From positions 1-64,000 of the forward strand of contig JBCDKT010000004.1 in the NCBI GenBank assembly GCA_038746285.1: a stretch of DNA of 64,000 nucleotides. Direction: 5' to 3'. How positions within the stretch are numbered: the first letter of the stretch is position 1; every line of letters starts with the position of its first letter. Shown here one piece after another: positions 5,182 to 64,000 of this stretch. The position numbers and the translations under genes are program-made. Below the pieces are notes generated by a model, which saw nothing but the letters and a program-made list of their open reading frames with translations, was not told the origin of the DNA and made no database searches. The DNA is from Bacteroidota bacterium. Its GTDB lineage: Bacteria; Bacteroidota; Rhodothermia; Rhodothermales; JANQRZ01.

Positions 5182-5310
5182 CGACTGACGAGAAGCCTAC
5201 GGGCGCGGAACGCCCTGTCCGTGCTCACGCGACCTGAGCCCCCGCGTGAACTAAACCACCGCCGCGGACCACCTCTGGCCTTCCGTAGCCTCGCTCCGCC
5301 AGTCGTCAGT

Positions 5311-5367
5311 AGCGCCCTCGCACGCGCGAAGTTCTGTAAGACTTCCCGTGCGAGGGCGCTGCCTTTT
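5311..5367 (+). terminator. Rho-independent terminator after the fasciclin gene
   Basis: A perfect 14-bp stem pairs AGCGCCCTCGCACG (5311-5324) with its complement at 5347-5360, extended inward by GAAGT/ACTTC. It is followed by GCCTTTTTCGG with five T residues on the plus strand only. It lies 130 bp after the fasciclin stop codon. The sequence resembles a canonical intrinsic terminator; a small RNA ending here cannot be excluded. Confidence 0.7.
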
Positions 5368-5369
5368 TC

Positions 5370-5455
5370 GGAGGACGGTGAGACGGTGGCGGTGGCGCGT
5401 TGCGCGGCGGCCTCGGTAGCTTTGTGAGTCTTGCTTTCGGCAGCTGACAGCCAGC
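5370..5455 (+). repeat. Dispersed intergenic element with promoter-like core (copy 1)
   Basis: The word GAGGACGGTGAGACGGTGGC at 5371-5390 is the complement of a word in the pyrimidine-rich leader of glpK. It is followed by a core at 5397-5440 beginning GCGTTGCGCGGCGG and containing TAGCTTTG, an exact TA-N2-TTTG element. A closely related core occurs at 8493, and longer relatives occur at 27485 and 42703. The copy points into the 3' end of the convergent amidohydrolase gene, where it could only drive antisense transcription. The gap ends with GCTGACAGCCAGCCTACAGG, a word related to one at about 29740-29760. Confidence 0.45.
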
Positions 5456-7117
5456 CTACAGGCCGCCGAAGATGGGGAGGCCGTCGAGGTAGGTCGCTAC
5501 GACCTCGGTCTCCAGAATCTCCGGCGCGGGCACGGTCATGATATCGCGCGAGAGGACGACGAAGTCGGCCCGCTTGCCCGGCTCTAGGGAGCCTACCTGG
5601 TCTTCCATGAACGCGGCGTAGGCCGCGTCGAGGGTGAAGCCGCGCAGGGCCTCGGCGCGGGTCAGGCGCTGCTCCGGGTCCCACCCGCCCTCGGGATGGC
5701 CGCCGGCGTCCTGCCGGGTGACGGAGGCGTAGAGCCCGAGGAGCGGGCTGACGGGCTCGACGGGGAAGTCGGAGCCGAGAGCAAGGCGAGCACCGCTGCC
5801 GAGGAGCGAGCGCCACGCGTAGGCTCCCTCGATGCGCTGCGGGCCGACGCGGTCCTCGGCCCAGGGCCGGTCGCTCGTGGCATGGGTCGGCTGCACCGAG
5901 GCGATCACGCCGAGCGCGGCGAAGCGCGGGAGGTCCTCCGGGGCGATGACTTGGGCGTGCTCGACGCGGTGACGGCCCGGCCCGCCACCCGTCTCCTCGA
6001 CGGCCGCGGCGTAGGTGTCGAGCGCGATCCGGTTGGCCCGGTCGCCGATGGCGTGGGTGTTGACCTGGAGGCCGCACCACATCGCCCGGTTGACGAGCGA
6101 CTGGAACACGGAGGGGGCCGTGACGAGGAGGCCGCTGTTGCCGGGGTCGTCGCTGTAGGGTTCGAGGAGGGCCGCGCCCCGGCTGCCGAGCGCACCGTCG
6201 AGGTAGAACTTGACCGAGCGCACGGTGAGGCGCCCCCCGTAGTCGGCGAAGGGGCGGACCTCGCAGATGTAGTCCAGCGTCTGGCCCGGGCCGCCGATCA
6301 TCCCGTAGAGCCGGAGCGGGAACCGGCCCGCGTCGATCATCGCCCGGTAGAGCGCCATCGTGGCGAGGTCGACGCCGGCTTCGTGGACGCCGGTGAGGCC
6401 GTGCCGGGACGTCTCCTCCAGCGCCCGCTCCAGCCGGAGTTGCAGCTCCAGCTCGCTCGGCGGCGGCACGAACGCCTCGACGAGCGCCTCTGCGTTGTCC
6501 ACGAACACGCCGGTCGGTCGGCCCTCAGCGTCGCGGAGTACGGCCCCGCCCTCGGGGTTGGGCGGCGCAGGCTGGGCCGGGTCGATCCCGGCGGCGCGGA
6601 GGGCGGCCGTGTTGGCCCATGTGGCGTGCCCGTCGATGCGGGCGATCCAGACGGGCCGGTCGGGGAAGGCGGCGTCGAGGTCGGCGGCGGTCGGGAAGAG
6701 GTACGAGCCGTCGGCGGCGGCGGGCCAGTCGTTCTGGTCCCAGCCGCGCCCGAGCACCCACGCGCTGTCGGGCAGGGCGAGCGCGAAGCGCTGGAGCCGC
6801 TCGACGACCTCGGCCTTCGACGCGGTCCCGGCGAGGTTGGCTTGCAGGAGCGACGCGCCGAGGTTCATCAGGTGGGCGTGGGCGTCGATCAGCCCTGGGA
6901 CGACCGTGCGGCCCCCGGCGTCGAGCCGCGCAGCCTCGGGGTAGGCGGCGAACACGGCCGCGGTGTCCCCGACGGCCAGCAGCACGCCGTCCTCGAACGC
7001 GAGGGCCTCGGCCGTGGGCTGCGCCGGGTCGACGGTGTAGATGCGGGCGTTGTGCAGCACCGTCGGCTGCGCCGCGAGCGGGGTGGCGAGCAGCAGGAAC
7101 CAGAGAAAACGAAGCAT
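5456..7117 (-). CDS. Secreted amidohydrolase (YtcJ/AepA-like)
   Basis: This 553-aa metal-dependent hydrolase belongs to the amidohydrolase_3 group. It starts with a signal peptide (MLRFLWFLLLATPLAAQ), so it is probably periplasmic. Metal-binding landmarks are GLIDAHAHLMNLG (His80, His82), the NTHAIGDRAN segment, HRVEHAQVI and the late LALGSDFPVEP Asp. The substrate of this family is usually unknown; members cleave amide or carbamate bonds. The ATG at 7115-7117 was preferred over upstream in-frame codons because it opens the signal peptide and is preceded by a TATCTTC promoter element at 7145-7151 and a C/T-rich leader. Confidence 0.88.
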   Translation of the reverse strand: MLRFLWFLLLATPLAAQPTVLHNARIYTVDPAQPTAEALAFEDGVLLAVGDTAAVFAAYPEAARLDAGGRTVVPGLIDAHAHLMNLGASLLQANLAGTASKAEVVERLQRFALALPDSAWVLGRGWDQNDWPAAADGSYLFPTAADLDAAFPDRPVWIARIDGHATWANTAALRAAGIDPAQPAPPNPEGGAVLRDAEGRPTGVFVDNAEALVEAFVPPPSELELQLRLERALEETSRHGLTGVHEAGVDLATMALYRAMIDAGRFPLRLYGMIGGPGQTLDYICEVRPFADYGGRLTVRSVKFYLDGALGSRGAALLEPYSDDPGNSGLLVTAPSVFQSLVNRAMWCGLQVNTHAIGDRANRIALDTYAAAVEETGGGPGRHRVEHAQVIAPEDLPRFAALGVIASVQPTHATSDRPWAEDRVGPQRIEGAYAWRSLLGSGARLALGSDFPVEPVSPLLGLYASVTRQDAGGHPEGGWDPEQRLTRAEALRGFTLDAAYAAFMEDQVGSLEPGKRADFVVLSRDIMTVPAPEILETEVVATYLDGLPIFGGL

Positions 7118-7878: not shown

Positions 7879-8454
7879 GTGACCAACCGGTTTCTCTTCC
7901 TCGCACTCCTCGCCGCCGCGACGCTGCTCGCCGGGTGCAGCGGTCCGAAGCCCGGACCGCCGCCGCCCGCCGCCACCGAGGTCGGCCTCGACGTGCGCTA
8001 CGAGCGAGCCTTCGCCGCGCTCCGGGTCCACCCCGCCGTGCAGGCGTTCGGCGCCGCCCACCTCGCGGCGTCGGAGCCGCTCGCGATCGAGGTCTCGCCG
8101 GAGATCGTCCCGCTCGACTACGCTCTCCTCGCCCCGGACGTGGCGCGGCAGTCGGGGGCCGCCGGCAGCCGCGTCGACGGCGTCCGCGACTCCCTCGCCG
8201 TCCTCGCCGCCGCCGACCGCTTCGCCCCGACCTCGGACGAGGCGCTGCCGCTGCTCTCGATGCGGCAGCAGCGGCCCCTCGTGCTGTTCTTCAGCCAGCT
8301 ACGCGGCGACCGCCTCGGCGCGCAGCTCTACCCCAACCCGTTTCGCCGCCGGAGCTACGACGCGGTACGCGACGGCGCGCCCGGCCTCGCCCTGCTCGTC
8401 ACGTTCGAGGACGGGCGCGTGGCCGAGGTCTACGCCGAGGCGATGGGACGGTGA
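7879..8454 (+). CDS. Lipoprotein of unknown function
   Basis: The 191-aa product has a lipoprotein signal with lipobox LLAGC close to the N terminus and a Pro-rich spacer (GPKPGPPPPAATEVG), so it should be anchored in the inner or outer membrane. I recognise no domain in the remainder, which has alternating acidic and hydrophobic stretches and a C-terminal LALLVTFEDGRVAEVYAEAM. The GTG at 7879 was chosen because it opens the signal peptide; an ATG at 7810 would add 23 Pro-rich residues in front of it. It lies 79 bp after ogt, and the gap has the purine-rich then pyrimidine-rich layout seen elsewhere. Confidence 0.7.
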   Translation: MTNRFLFLALLAAATLLAGCSGPKPGPPPPAATEVGLDVRYERAFAALRVHPAVQAFGAAHLAASEPLAIEVSPEIVPLDYALLAPDVARQSGAAGSRVDGVRDSLAVLAAADRFAPTSDEALPLLSMRQQRPLVLFFSQLRGDRLGAQLYPNPFRRRSYDAVRDGAPGLALLVTFEDGRVAEVYAEAMGR

Positions 8455-8535
8455 GACGGAGGACAGCGGGCAGAAGACAGAGGACGGCTGACGCGTTGCG
8501 CGGCGTTCTCGCCAGCTCTGATAGTTTTGCTTTGT
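8447..8535 (+). repeat. Dispersed intergenic element with promoter-like core (copy 2)
   Basis: GACGGTGAGACGGAGGACAG spans the lipoprotein stop codon. AGAAGACAGAGGACGG follows, then a core starting GCGTTGCGCGGCGTTCTCG at 8493 and containing TAGTTTTG, an exact TA-N2-TTTG element. The first word matches those at 5371 and 44546. The core points into the 3' end of dtd, antisense to it. Confidence 0.45.
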
Positions 8536-8988
8536 TCATCCGTCGGCGCGCTTCTCGATCCAGAGCGTCACCGGGCCGTCGTTCGTGAGCCGCACGTCCA
8601 TGTGCGCACCGAATACACCGGTCGGGACCGGCTTGCCGAGCAGGTGGCGTAGCTCTGCCACGAAGGCTTTGTAGAGTGCCTCGGCCTGTTCCGGCGGGGC
8701 CGAGGCGACGAACGAGGGGCGGTTGCCCTTGCGCGTGTCGCCGTAGAGGGTGAACTGCGAGACCACGAGCGCTTCGCCGCCGGTGTCGAGGAGCGAGCGG
8801 TTCATACGCCCTTCCGTGTCGGGGAAGATGCGGAGGCCTGCGACCTTCTTCGCCACCCACGCTAGCTCTGCCTCCGTGTCGCTGCGGTGGACGCCGAGCA
8901 GGACGAGCAGGCCGGGACCGATCTCGCCCGTGACCTGACCGTCCACCGTGACCCTGGCTTCGGAGACGCGCTGGACGAGGGCAACCAT
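8536..8988 (-). CDS. dtd: D-aminoacyl-tRNA deacylase
   Basis: Dtd hydrolyses D-aminoacyl-tRNAs (and mischarged glycyl-tRNA-Ala), recycling the tRNA. The 150-aa length is typical. The two family signatures are present: [17 protein letters not shown] and the C-terminal [10 protein letters not shown] with the cross-subunit Gly-Pro motif. The ATG at 8986-8988 opens the conserved [15 protein letters not shown] strand; in-frame codons further upstream read through C-rich leader sequence. A TACCTTC element lies at 9017-9023. The gene is divergent from the small hypothetical gene at 9092. Confidence 0.95.
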
Positions 8989-27349: not shown

Positions 27350-27450
27350 TCCAGGTCAACCGCTACCAGTCAACCGGCGGAACGGGTAGGACGGAAACTT
27401 CGCAAGAGATATCGCCCGTGCGGAGGTGCGCCTTCGGCGCGCGGTGTGAG

Positions 27451-27560
27451 GGCGTGGGAGGAATGAAGGGAATGGGAGGGATGAGCGTTGGCGCAGAGCG
27501 CGAGGGTCTCGGTAACCTGGTCGCCTTTTCTTGGCTCTCCCCACTCTCCCCACGCCAGAC
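27451..27560 (+). repeat. Dispersed intergenic element with promoter-like core (copy 3)
   Basis: A purine-rich half (GGGAGGAATGAAGGGAATGG) leads into a core at 27485 (GCGTTGGCGCAGAGCGCGAG, then GGTCTCGGTAACC). A pyrimidine-rich half (CTCTCCCCACTCTCCCCACG) follows. The core is nearly identical to that at 42703. Its orientation is antisense to hprK, whose stop codon is at 27582. Confidence 0.55.
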
Positions 27561-27581
27561 AGACCGGCGTGCGCAGCACAT

Positions 27582-28616
27582 CTACTCCGTGTCGTGCTCG
27601 AACCACTCGGTGTTGCGGCGCGGGCGGGCGGGGCTGCCCTCGGGGTCGCCCGCTTCCTTTGAGCGGATGCGGTCGGCGAGGCGGCGGGCGAAGACCTGGG
27701 CAGGGTCGTAGCCGTAGTGCTGCAGGAGGTGGTTCATCGCGATCACCTCGCAGATGACGGTCATGTTCTTGCCCGGCACGATCGGGAGCCGGACGAGCGG
27801 GAGCGGCACGCCGAGGATCTCGCGCGACGCATCGACCATGCCGATGCGCGTGTATTCCTGGTCGGGGTCCCACACCTCCATCGCCACCACCACCTCGACG
27901 CGCTTCTGGAACCGGATCGCCCGGATGCCGAACATGGCCCGCACGTCGACGATCCCGAGGCCGCGGATCTCCATGAAGTGCTGCGTCAGCTCCGTCCCCG
28001 AGCCCATCAGCACGCCCTCGCTCTTCTTCGTCACCACCACCACGTCGTCGGCCACGAGCCGGTGCCCGCGCTCGACGAGGTCGAGGGCGACCTCGGACTT
28101 CCCGATCCCGCTCTTGCCGACGAGCAGCAGGCCGATCCCGTAGACGTCCACGAGCGAGCTGTGGACGGTCTGCTGGAGCGCGAACTGGTCCTCGAGGAAG
28201 TCGCGGAGGTGGTGCATGAACTCGGTCGAGGGCACTGGGGTCGAGTAGGCGGGGATCCCCGCGTCGGTCGCCATCTCGACGAGGTCGGCGGGGAGCCCGT
28301 TGCTCTCGGTCATGAACAGGCATGGGATGCCGAACTGCACGAGGCGGCCGAACGCGGCGCGCCGGGCGTCCGCGCCGAGGTGGGCGAGGTACTGGCACTC
28401 GGTGTTGCCGAGCACCTGGACGCGCTCGTGCGTGAAGAGGTCGGTGTAGCCCGCGAGCGCGAGGCCCGGCCGGTTCAGGCTGCTCTCGACCACGACGCGC
28501 TCCGAGGCGTCGACCTCGTTGACCGCCTCGACGTCCACCCTGAGCAGTTCGCGGAGCTGCTCTACGAGGAACGCGACGGAGATCGACTCTTTCTTGAACG
28601 GCTCAGGACTGCGCAT
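27582..28616 (-). CDS. hprK: HPr kinase/phosphorylase
   Basis: HprK phosphorylates or dephosphorylates a serine of HPr-type proteins in response to metabolic state. The 344-aa protein has the N-terminal domain, then the P-loop GKSGIGKSEVALDLVERGHR, the ADDVV segment after it, and the HprK signature region including EIRGLGIVDVRAMFG. The ATG at 28614-28616 is preferred: an upstream ATG at 28691 would add 25 residues encoded wholly by the repeat-word element, with no family similarity. No HPr or PTS gene is in the window. In Bacteroidota HprK often occurs with incomplete PTS sets, so the partner must be sought elsewhere. Confidence 0.93.
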   Translation of the reverse strand: MRSPEPFKKESISVAFLVEQLRELLRVDVEAVNEVDASERVVVESSLNRPGLALAGYTDLFTHERVQVLGNTECQYLAHLGADARRAAFGRLVQFGIPCLFMTESNGLPADLVEMATDAGIPAYSTPVPSTEFMHHLRDFLEDQFALQQTVHSSLVDVYGIGLLLVGKSGIGKSEVALDLVERGHRLVADDVVVVTKKSEGVLMGSGTELTQHFMEIRGLGIVDVRAMFGIRAIRFQKRVEVVVAMEVWDPDQEYTRIGMVDASREILGVPLPLVRLPIVPGKNMTVICEVIAMNHLLQHYGYDPAQVFARRLADRIRSKEAGDPEGSPARPRRNTEWFEHDTE

Positions 28617-29696: not shown

Positions 29697-29704
29697 AGGG
29701 GCAG

Positions 29705-29732
29705 CTTTTGGCTTTTGGCTTTTGGCTTTTGG
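29705..29732. repeat. 7-bp tandem repeat (CTTTTGG x4) upstream of moxR
   Basis: Four perfect CTTTTGG units lie 9-36 bp upstream of the moxR start, so on the transcribed strand the leader reads (CCAAAAG)4. The adjoining bases up to the fmt stop carry GGGCTGACAGCC, an inverted repeat word shared with the gap at 5440. Confidence 0.8.
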
Positions 29733-29774
29733 CGGCGCAACCTACAGGCTGAGGGCTGACAGCCGAGAGCCTCC

Positions 29775-42585: not shown

Positions 42586-42610
42586 GGAGACGGGGGGCTG
42601 GCTGGGGAAA

Positions 42611-42617
42611 CAAGATA
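42611..42617 (-). promoter_or_regulatory. -7 promoter element (TATCTTG) of the GbsR-type gene
   Basis: Minus-strand TATCTTG lies 26 bp upstream of the ATG, leaving a very short leader. Confidence 0.55.
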
Positions 42618-42669
42618 GGGCGATTCGGCTCCGCGTGCCGAGCGGCTGCGGAAAAGGAGAAATGGTTCG

Positions 42670-42848
42670 GCGTGGAGGGAACGGAGGGCGAGGAGAGAAT
42701 GGGCGTTGGCGCAGGGCGCGGCGGTCTCGGTACCTTTCTCGGCTTTTCGTTCCCTGCCCTCCCTGCCCTCCCTGCCCTCCCTGCCCTCCCTGCCCTCCCT
42801 GCCCTCCCTGCCCTCCCTGCCCTCCCTGCCCTCCCTGCCCTCCCCACC
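42670..42848 (+). repeat. Dispersed element with promoter-like core (copy 4) plus 9-bp tandem array
   Basis: A purine-rich half (GGAGGGAACGGAGGGCGAGG) is followed by the core at 42703 (GCGTTGGCGCAGGGCGCGGC, then GGTCTCGGTACCTTTC). The core contains TACCTTTC, close to TA-N2-TTTG, 22 bp from the TTG of GCGTTG. Ten near-perfect CCCTGCCCT units occupy 42752-42841, 7 bp before the GTG of the next gene. The core is nearly identical to that at 27485. It is correctly oriented to be the promoter of the downstream gene. Confidence 0.7.
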
Positions 42849-43714: not shown

Positions 43715-44545
43715 ATGCTCCCGTTCGCCCTCGCTTCCGCCGATGCGCTGCCGCCCCGTCCCGACGGCGGAGGGGCCGACGCCGAGCGCTGGCCGGAGCC
43801 CTCGCCCGAGGCAGAGCCGACCGCGCCGTCCGGCGAAGCGGAGCCGGTTCCCGGCGCAGCGGACCTGCCAGACGAGAACCTGCCGGACGCCGCAGGGCTG
43901 CCCGACGCCACGCCGTTCCGCGACCCCGCGCCCGAGCCGCCGGCCATTCCACCGCCTGGTCCGGACGACCTGCCGCCGCCGCAGGCCCCTCCCGAGCCCG
44001 CGAAGCGCCCGCTCGTGCAGCGCCTCGTCCTCGCCCTGCTCCTCATCGCCGCCGCCGGGCTGATCGGGTACATGCTCTCGCGCCCGAGCCAGACGACCGA
44101 GACGCTCGGCGTCCTCGCGCGCTCGGTCGAGGCCGCCGGGACGCTGCGGCTCGCGGTCAACACCGACCTCCCCGCCGAGGCGCAGCAGTTCGTGCGCGAC
44201 GAGTTCGGCTGGCGCGTCGGCGTGCCTACGTTCTCGACGGCCACGCTGCGCGGCGTCGCCCTGGCGCGGGCGGCCCCGTCCGTCGAGGTCCCCGTCTTCC
44301 TCTACACCGACGGCACCAGCCGCGACGTCGCCGTCTTCGCCTACAGCTACGCCCTGCTCGACCAGGTCCCGGACCGCCTCACCCTCGCCCGCGACGACTA
44401 CGCCGAGCTCGACCTCGGTGCGCCGGTCGTCCGCCGCACCGGCCGCACCGACGTCCTGCTCTGGCGGGACCGGGACGACATCTACGTCGCCGTCACCGAC
44501 CTGCCGCCGAGCGCGCTGCGAGATGGCCTTTCGGTGGAACGGTGA
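43715..44545 (+). CDS. Membrane protein of unknown function with Pro-rich N terminus
   Basis: The 276-aa protein has about 105 residues of Pro/Ala/Glu-rich low-complexity sequence, one membrane helix (LVLALLLIAAAGLIGYML) and an extracytoplasmic C-terminal domain of 140 residues (AGTLRLAVNTDLPAEAQQFV; VPVFLYTDGTSRDVAVFAYS). The membrane topology resembles anti-sigma factors or other envelope regulators, but no motif supports that. I do not recognise the family. It follows the SAM hydroxide adenosyltransferase gene by 44 bp with its own promoter element, and its stop codon is followed at once by a 7-bp tandem array. Confidence 0.7.
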   Translation: MLPFALASADALPPRPDGGGADAERWPEPSPEAEPTAPSGEAEPVPGAADLPDENLPDAAGLPDATPFRDPAPEPPAIPPPGPDDLPPPQAPPEPAKRPLVQRLVLALLLIAAAGLIGYMLSRPSQTTETLGVLARSVEAAGTLRLAVNTDLPAEAQQFVRDEFGWRVGVPTFSTATLRGVALARAAPSVEVPVFLYTDGTSRDVAVFAYSYALLDQVPDRLTLARDDYAELDLGAPVVRRTGRTDVLLWRDRDDIYVAVTDLPPSALRDGLSVER

Positions 44546-44735
44546 GGCGGAGGACAGAGGACAGAGGACAGAGGACAGAGGACAGAGGACAGAGGACAGA
44601 GGACAGAGGACAGAGGACAATTTTTCCACGTTAGTTCCACAACACAAGCGTCTTCGTAATTTTCACGGCTTTTCTTGTCTCACCGTCTCACCGTCTCACC
44701 GTCTCACCGTCTCACCGTCTCACCGTCTCGCCCCC
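44546..44735 (+). repeat. Paired tandem arrays flanking a promoter-like core
   Basis: Between two codirectional genes lie ten 7-bp units AGGACAG (44551-44620, the last AGGACAA), a 56-base A/T-richer core containing TAATTTTC (a TA-N2-TTTG relative), and seven 8-bp units GTCTCACC (44677-44732, the last GTCTCGCC). The second array ends 3 bp before the ATG at 44736, so it forms the leader. The stop-proximal GGTGAGGCGG nearly complements the leader word. Related words occur at 5371, 8447 and 56642. Confidence 0.85.
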
Positions 44736-45533
44736 ATGCCCTACGGTCTCCTCCTCGCCCTCGCCTTGCTGCTCGTCGGCTGCGCTGAGCCGCCCGCACC
44801 GGAGCCGGAGTCGGCCGCTCCCTCGGCTCCTGCGCTCGTCACCAAAGCCGACTCCGTGGCGATGCAGGTCGTGGCGGCCTCCGGCGGGTTCGACGCGTGG
44901 CACGCGCTCCCGGCGCTGCGCTTCTCGTTCGGGGTCGAGCGCGGCGGCGAGGCGCGGGTCGCGGCGCGGCACCTGTGGGACAAGCAGACGGGCCGCTACC
45001 GCGTCGAGTGGCCCGGCGGCGCGGACTCGACCTACACCGCGCTCTTCACGGCGTGGCCGGACAGCGGCCGGGCCTACCTCAACGGCGAGCCCCTCGACGG
45101 CAGCGCCGCCGACGTGGCGATGGCGAGCGCCCGCAGCCGAACCCTCAACGACACCTACTGGCTCCTCGCCCCCTTCAAGCTCTTCGACGGCGGCGTCGCG
45201 CGCACCTACGCCCCCGACTCTTCGGACGCCGCCACCGACGTGATCCGGCTCGACTTCGACGGCGTCGGCCTCACGCCGGGCGACCGGTACTGGCTGTTTG
45301 TGGATAAAGAGAGCGGGCAGCTTACGCGGTGGACGTTCGTCCTCGAAGGCAGCACCACGCCGCGCTCCTCGACGTGGACGGCCTACCGCTCCCTCTCCAG
45401 TCCGCAGGGCCGGGTGGTGCTCTCGGCGCGCAAGGATGTCGTCGGCGCCCCCGTCACTATCCTCACCGACGAGCTGCAAGCCCCGGCAGCCCTCGACGAG
45501 ACGTGGTTCACCGATCCGCAGCCTCGCTTGTAG
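44736..45533 (+). CDS. Lipoprotein, DUF6503-like
   Basis: The 265-aa protein has a lipobox (LLLVGCAEP) and a Pro-rich spacer. The mature part contains VAASGGFDAWHALPALRFSF, a repeated W-x-x-L pattern, DKQTGRYRVEWPG, and a later YWLFVDKESGQLTRWTF. It resembles the DUF6503-type outer-envelope proteins of Bacteroidota, which look like LolA-type beta folds; this family assignment is from memory. The function is unknown. Its leader is a perfect pyrimidine-rich tandem array. Confidence 0.72.
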   Translation: MPYGLLLALALLLVGCAEPPAPEPESAAPSAPALVTKADSVAMQVVAASGGFDAWHALPALRFSFGVERGGEARVAARHLWDKQTGRYRVEWPGGADSTYTALFTAWPDSGRAYLNGEPLDGSAADVAMASARSRTLNDTYWLLAPFKLFDGGVARTYAPDSSDAATDVIRLDFDGVGLTPGDRYWLFVDKESGQLTRWTFVLEGSTTPRSSTWTAYRSLSSPQGRVVLSARKDVVGAPVTILTDELQAPAALDETWFTDPQPRL

Positions 45534-56499: not shown

Positions 56500-56679
56500 G
56501 TAGAGGATGCGGATGGAATGGGAGGAGTGGGAGGAGCATCGAGGACTCGCCGTAGGCAAATCCACGCTAGCGGGCGCGCCATGGCTACCGGGGAGACGCG
56601 CTGCCCGCCAAACGCGCACGCTGGGTTCGCTATTTTCTGCCCACCGTCTCACCGTCTTCTGTCTCACCGTCCTCCGACC
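56500..56679 (+). repeat. Purine/pyrimidine word array forming the glpK leader
   Basis: GGAATGGGAGGAGTGGGAGG (about 56515-56534) forms the purine half. A core with TATTTTCTG at 56631 follows, then CCGTCTCACCGTCTTCTGTC and TCACCGTCCTCCGACC run up to the glpK GTG at 56680. The leader words are the complements of those at 5371 (GAGGACGGTGAGACGG) and 8447. Confidence 0.6.
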
Positions 56680-58167
<1,488 letters not shown>

Positions 58168-63919: not shown

Positions 63920-63921
63920 CC

Positions 63922-64000
63922 GCACGGTTCGCCGGATCGCACGGTTCGCCGGATCGCACGGTTCGCCGGATCGCACGGTTCGCCGGATCGCACGAGCGCC
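63922..64000. repeat. 17-bp tandem repeat at the window's edge
   Basis: Four perfect GCACGGTTCGCCGGATC units (63922-63989) and a partial fifth follow the hydrolase stop codon after two bases. The array may continue past the window's right-hand end. It has no spacers, so it is not CRISPR. Confidence 0.85.

Follow-up and report, generated by a model that had tools for sequence, protein, structure and literature searches.

Paired tandem arrays before a LolA/LolB-like lipoprotein gene as a probable copy of a dispersed, replication-polar intergenic element

Described systems and the locus at 44.6 kb

IS200/IS605 and Tn7 insertions have their orientation set by replication (PMC5371812), and in IS200/IS605 it follows host replication by way of the lagging-strand template, much as 36 of 37 mapped copies of the family described below share one polarity. 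These insertion sequences, however, encode a Y1 transposase, which was absent from our searches of the genome studied here, and they carry no flanking tandem arrays (PMC5371812). REPIN/RAYT systems likewise consist of hundreds of short intergenic mobile repeats, for which single-stranded transposition has been proposed, but they are built of REP palindromes and depend on a RAYT transposase of the Y1 type that we did not find in this genome (PMC3116915). The BrickBuilt MITE of Porphyromonas gingivalis resembles the present element in its Bacteroidota host, its dispersal between genes, its variable minisatellite, its promoter activity (putative in the present element) and its lack of an internal transposase (PMC4596501). 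The portions of that source used here set it apart by description, with a 23-bp repeat, a defined leader and tail with terminal inverted repeats, and 19 copies, and they report no replication polarity (PMC4596501).

Heptamer arrays that flank genes form another body of work. The GGGNATC repeats of Xanthomonas and Nostoc follow stop codons in a G-rich form, precede start codons in a C-rich one and occur as inverted pairs, features that the present family shares; they are also intergenic and variable in copy number (PMC4692102). They differ from the present family in having one unit per genome, no described conserved core and no leading- or lagging-strand preference, and in being mostly conserved between relatives (83%; PMC4692102). 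The pairing of a purine array with a pyrimidine array matches these Xanthomonas repeats of Rehm et al. (PMC4692102), and this part of our observation is therefore already known. TAACTGA heptamers of Beggiatoaceae, cyanobacteria and some Bacteroidetes also lie a few bases from start codons and coincide with contig breaks, and some are absent from relatives with shorter gaps; the sections of that report drawn on here describe a single unit without a core and do not report replication polarity (PMC4679880). Dispersed repeats and gene-flanking heptamer arrays of bacteria have usually been treated as separate subjects. Here the two coincide: arrays enclose a core that bears a host-type promoter box, this unit occurs more than 100 times and is almost completely polar with respect to the replication strand, and a close relative lacks the core.

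The DNA analysed (the window; 64,000 nucleotides) is contig C4:1-64000 of a 4.08-Mb genome (G000) in 134 contigs, with 69% G+C across the 864 kb surveyed. It was compared with a congener (G001; 3.7 Mb, 64% G+C over the 1.35 Mb examined) and with a genus-level relative (G002). The element at 44,546-44,733 (forward strand, like the genes and family members of the window given below) fills the gap between two genes; from left to right it consists of AGGACAG repeats (70 bp), a core and GTCTCACC repeats (53 bp). The upstream gene (43,715-44,545; no Pfam match) contributes its last codons and stop to the left junction: its TGA at 44,543-44,545 is followed by GGCGG and then by the AGGACAG (GAGGACA) array at 44,550-44,619, which TRF reports as period 7, 10.0 copies and 100% match and which comprises nine full AGGACAG units and an AGGACAA. 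The core region spans 44,620-44,676; positions 44,641-44,677 score 26.7 bits against the family core model (E 2.4e-5), and TAATTTTC, resembling a promoter -7 box (TAnnTT), stands at 44,657-44,664. The GTCTCACC array occupies 44,677-44,732 and is perfect over 44,677-44,729 (TRF: 6.6 copies, 100% match). The original prediction of ten AGGACAG units starting 5 bp past the stop codon, with a TA-N2-TTTC element between the arrays, was thus accurate; its seven GTCTCACC units ending 3 bp before the ATG at 44,736 are correctly positioned, but six are perfect and the seventh is the variant GTCTCGCC. Perfect arrays of 70 and 53 bases are far beyond what chance could produce, and AGGACAGAGGACAG occurs 66 times in the genome against none for a reversed control pattern. 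A hairpin between the two arrays was considered and rejected, their folding being no better than that of shuffles (RNA z +2.39, DNA z +1.42). An Rfam search gave no match near the gathering score, and a scan for sigma-70 promoter and terminator consensus sequences gave none.

The downstream gene (44,736-45,533) encodes a lipoprotein with an invariant lipobox cysteine (Cys16). Its product has no Pfam match, but the structure model, which is confident (pLDDT 86.9), matches LolA/LolB and DUF1329 proteins. The protein, kept in 54 of 60 relatives and LolA/LolB-like in its predicted fold, is a conserved lipoprotein, which argues against a variable surface antigen. The C/T-rich leader without a Shine-Dalgarno sequence, to which the original prediction had drawn attention, is real at this locus but not special: Shine-Dalgarno words occur in 5-6% of host leaders, equal to their frequency at control positions, and host leaders near the start codon are 64-67% pyrimidine. 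The proposal of a phase-variable surface protein is therefore unsupported, since such a leader is the norm of the lineage and the protein it precedes is a conserved LolA-like lipoprotein.

A family of copies and their sites in a congener

A search with a 501-bp region matched 50 places in the genome, at which one layout recurs, a purine array, a core and a pyrimidine array, with a 3′ unit that changes by locus. A model of the sequence alone, derived from 24 cores, found at least 106 matches in this genome (all 106 scored candidates), none in the congener and three in the genus-level relative (E 0.01), these three with the same layout; the notion of a genome-level design was borne out. The core is 43 bp long (GCGCGGAGCGCGACGG-CTCGGTAACTTTCTCGGCTTTTCTTG), with purine-rich sequence 5′ and pyrimidine-rich sequence 3′, and it varies least at T19, in the TA and TT of TAnnTT and in a TTT at 36-38. 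Among 82 copies extracted with their flanks, the purine fraction of the 5′ arm exceeds 0.6 in 76 (mean 0.74), the pyrimidine fraction of the 3′ arm does so in 71 of 81 (mean 0.75), and a perfect array lies immediately 3′ of the core in 65. Most arms consist of 7-9-bp units in tandem, and whole elements measure about 90-260 bp; the 27 distinct 3′ units include none of the GGGNATC type. In the 864-kb survey, intergenic arrays of 7-9-bp units mostly adjoin a core. Perfect intergenic arrays also occur away from any core, at 63,921-63,994 (17-bp unit, 4.4 copies) and 29,704-29,733 (GCTTTTG, 4.3 copies).

As 79 of the 82 extracted copies were called outside genes, the family is short, non-coding, dispersed and intergenic in the manner of a MITE. 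About 60 bp 5′ of the core are near-identical across many unrelated loci, and subfamilies have long stretches in common beyond the core, such as GGTGCGCC-TNC-GGCGCGGAATGGGAGGAATGGGG, the end hairpin of which occurs in GCGCC/GGCGC and GCACC/GGTGC versions. Sequence held in common by unrelated loci outside the core indicates copying rather than convergence. Element ends differ between subfamilies, and inverted end motifs (TTCGGCGTGGAG / CTCCACGCC(GAA)) are present in one subfamily only. GCGC-NNN-GCGC in the core is paired in 89-99% of distinct cores, yet few two-sided changes are seen. The left end often supplies the stop codon of its neighbour (CGG-TGA-GGC), and neighbouring genes therefore end inside the array. 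A stretch of 180 kb of the largest contig (C1:1-180000) holds no core, against about five predicted by the mean density in the genome.

The window holds several further copies. Two lie between convergent genes, at 5,368-5,459 (core 5,395-5,436; gap of 6 bp in the congener) and at 8,445-8,541 (core 8,492-8,532; the two stop codons abut in the congener). A third, at 27,414-27,582, has both neighbours antisense, a core at 27,491-27,533 and a short 3′ array, with no core in the congener, and a fourth, at 42,590-42,846 in a divergent gap, combines a core at 42,709-42,749 with a TCCCTGCCC array at 42,751-42,844 and replaces a congener spacer that bears TATATTTG. The related words first noticed at 5,371 and 8,447 thus belong to the same family, but those at 56,642 lie in a degenerate relative (56,630-56,680) with GTCTCACC/CCGTCC words and no core above threshold; the full copy at 42,709-42,844 and the copy at 27,491-27,533 had been missed. 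Directly 5′ of the 5.4-kb element, a hairpin (GCGCCCTCGCACG...CGTGCGAGGGCGC) with a T run at 5,310-5,368, kept in the congener, resembles an intrinsic terminator.

The congener is collinear with the window, and where five copies of the window have a detectable core, its syntenic sites have none. By alignment, its orthologue of the 44.6-kb gap is GGAACGCTAACCCCATGCCC, that is, a stop codon, 4 bp and an ATG. The gap is also short in the genus-level relative, judged by alignment spacing, which points to insertion and not to loss. Thirty copies could be placed on the congener with both flanks, and the gaps there are mostly shorter; at the compared sites, where ends are fuzzy and relatives diverged, no clear target-site duplication was seen. 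Diverged relatives, such as GGCAGAG arrays beside AAATTAACGGTCTCAGTAGCG, occupy two orthologous gaps in the congener and a few others there, so that the family predates the split of the genus and expanded in the present lineage, and new insertion does not account for every copy. Three congener contigs (C16, C14 and C8) have intergenic 7-8-mer arrays of their own, some as inverted pairs (GTTTCTC...GAGAAAC), in a different vocabulary.

Orientation to genes, to replication and to a promoter-like box

The gene context of 82 copies and of 1.35 Mb of the congener was surveyed. Of 72 cores, 41 point toward the start of the downstream gene and 31 (about 43%) toward its 3′ end, a near-random division that argues against placement of the copies as promoters for their neighbours. 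The idea of a unit built for the lipoprotein gene fails on the same count, and on the empty 44.6-kb site of the congener. Orientation to replication is a different matter. Core orientation is uniform on 28 of 29 contigs with at least two copies, whereas label permutation gave a mean of 13.1 uniform contigs and a maximum of 22 in 100,000 trials. Mapped onto the congener, cores are oriented 12/12 plus on C16 (480 kb), 9/9 minus on C14 (386 kb) and 4/4 plus on C8, so that two-sided maps agree in polarity in 25 of 25 cases and one-sided maps in 11 of 12. GC skew in the congener is negative in 12/12 bins of C16, positive in 10/10 of C14 and negative in 5/5 of C8, with fourfold-site z values of -11.7, +11.5 and -10.3, respectively.

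Because orientation tracks the sign of congener GC skew, from which replication direction was inferred, 36 of the 37 mapped copies can be assigned a core on the C-rich sequence of the lagging strand (binomial P about 3e-10), and the reverse complement of the core is then on the lagging-strand template. The skew of the congener was used because that of the genome itself is too weak for orienting contigs. For five copies on smaller other contigs the sign agrees, in one case weakly, as it does for a copy on contig C24 of the genus-level relative; the exceptions to polarity are the one mapped copy in 37 and one of four copies on C13. Replication-linked GC skew is strong in the congener and almost absent in the present genome of higher G+C content.

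Upstream of congener genes, TAnnTT occurs 136 times in sense against 32 times in antisense among 422 regions, with a peak 30-50 bp before the start, and several tRNA genes are also preceded by it. By sequence, then, the TAnnTT contained in the element core is a putative host -7-type box. The "promoter core" of the original prediction holds insofar as the box is promoter-like, but it is not dedicated to the lipoprotein gene. At 42.7 kb, where the element takes the place of the TATATTTG-bearing spacer, this replacement suggests that the core may supply a promoter to its neighbour.

Spread of the copies and competing explanations

The enzyme families searched were Y1, Y2, reverse transcriptase and tyrosine recombinase. 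The Y1 (IS200-type) transposase model PF01797 had no match in the genome or in the congener, with positive controls, and the Y2 search had none either, though its controls were silent too. No gene family common to the neighbourhoods of copies was found, and no transposase adjoins them. A reverse transcriptase was rejected as the mobiliser: the genome has one, with no core nearby, and the genus-level relative, which has copies, has none. Its frame, on contig C77 (L385:1003-2547), lies next to a frame that a reading of its translation named cas1-like, is absent from both comparison genomes and probably encodes a CRISPR-associated enzyme. REP-like palindromes (GTAGGGGCGA...TCGCCCCTAC) adjoin some cores (L319, L320, L028 and L314), though no Y1 transposase was found.

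Layout, dispersal, copy number, intergenic location, congener sites without the element, polarity and unequal unit counts between loci together lead us to regard the 44.6-kb feature, with a probability of roughly 0.6, as a member of a dispersed, non-autonomous family of non-coding intergenic elements; insertion would have followed the polarity of the replication strands, slippage would lengthen the arrays, and the core brings along a -7 box of the host type. Spread at replication forks is the most economical reading. Copies moved by a transposase acting in trans would enter the lagging-strand template by a fork-coupled, probably single-stranded-DNA route, and their arrays would then lengthen and shorten by slippage. 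In copies directed toward a gene, TAnnTT could serve as its promoter, and the array could provide a C/U-rich leader; the 44.6-kb insertion would have split an ancestral operon and placed the lipoprotein gene behind a promoter and leader that it did not have before. The family offers a test case for the origin of arrays, for fork-coupled transposition and for the splitting of operons by ready-made promoters and leaders.

The original prediction, a promoter-plus-leader module whose repeat number tunes or phase-varies the lipoprotein gene, now seems unlikely. The TAnnTT box and the array do face the ATG at 44.6 kb, and array lengths do differ widely between loci sharing one unit, from 2.0 to 11.7 copies for ACTCCTCCC (20 loci) and from 2.4 to 12.8 for ACTCTCCC. 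Moreover, 14 of 106 copies lie less than 300 bp from a contig end, where about 2 would be expected, so that true lengths are uncertain and assembled ones not trustworthy, and the Coxiella VNTR loci ms24 and ms33, with GGACAGAGGACAG in their primers, vary between isolates (PMC1488860). Against such a module stand the copies that face gene ends, the ordinariness of the leader and the conservation of the protein, and Rehm et al. argue against phase variation in similar heptamer repeats (PMC4692102). Before phase variation is invoked for a conspicuous repeat beside a gene, the rest of the genome should be searched for that repeat. That the arrays never moved but grew in place by slippage at native promoters, with cores alike because promoters are alike, we hold to be highly improbable: several co-directional congener sites do have TAnnTT in the same gap, and host leaders are pyrimidine-rich, but the 4-bp congener gap at 44.6 kb, the copies with both neighbours antisense or in convergent gaps, and the near-identity of some 60 bp 5′ of the core at many unrelated loci all oppose it, and native promoters would be expected to lack replication polarity.

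Polarity itself admits other explanations. A functional replication-polar signal in fork movement, segregation or priming, spread by copying and held in orientation by selection, would account for the near-perfect polarity on several contigs and for a conserved core between diverged arms; it is nevertheless doubtful, as the congener has normal replication skew without the core, which must then be dispensable, and the 180 kb of contig C1 have no copies. We consider it very unlikely that the copies are what is left of ordinary insertion sequences, one or several, with array-bearing ends, polarized through fork targeting by their transposase. Some copies do have inverted end motifs (TTCGGCGTGGAG / CTCCACGCCGAA) and Tn7 and IS200/IS605 show such a bias (PMC5371812), but transposase genes are missing beside the copies and most subfamilies lack end motifs. 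The faintest candidate is a core that acts as a promoter on single-stranded DNA, from which RNA polymerase would copy the lagging-strand template into RNA that primes or restarts lagging-strand synthesis; the copies would be fork-service sites and not parasites, and polarity would then be their function.

AGGACAG arrays are present in many phyla. Of 62 such arrays, 13 have an inverted partner of the CTGTCCT type no more than 220 bp away on the 3′ side and none has one on the 5′ side, against 17 of 790 control windows. By the family model, the hairpin cores that accompany such arrays in other phyla are not homologous to the present core (best E 0.21). In unrelated phyla (L078-L147), the paired arrays are often arranged around a hairpin-like spacer.
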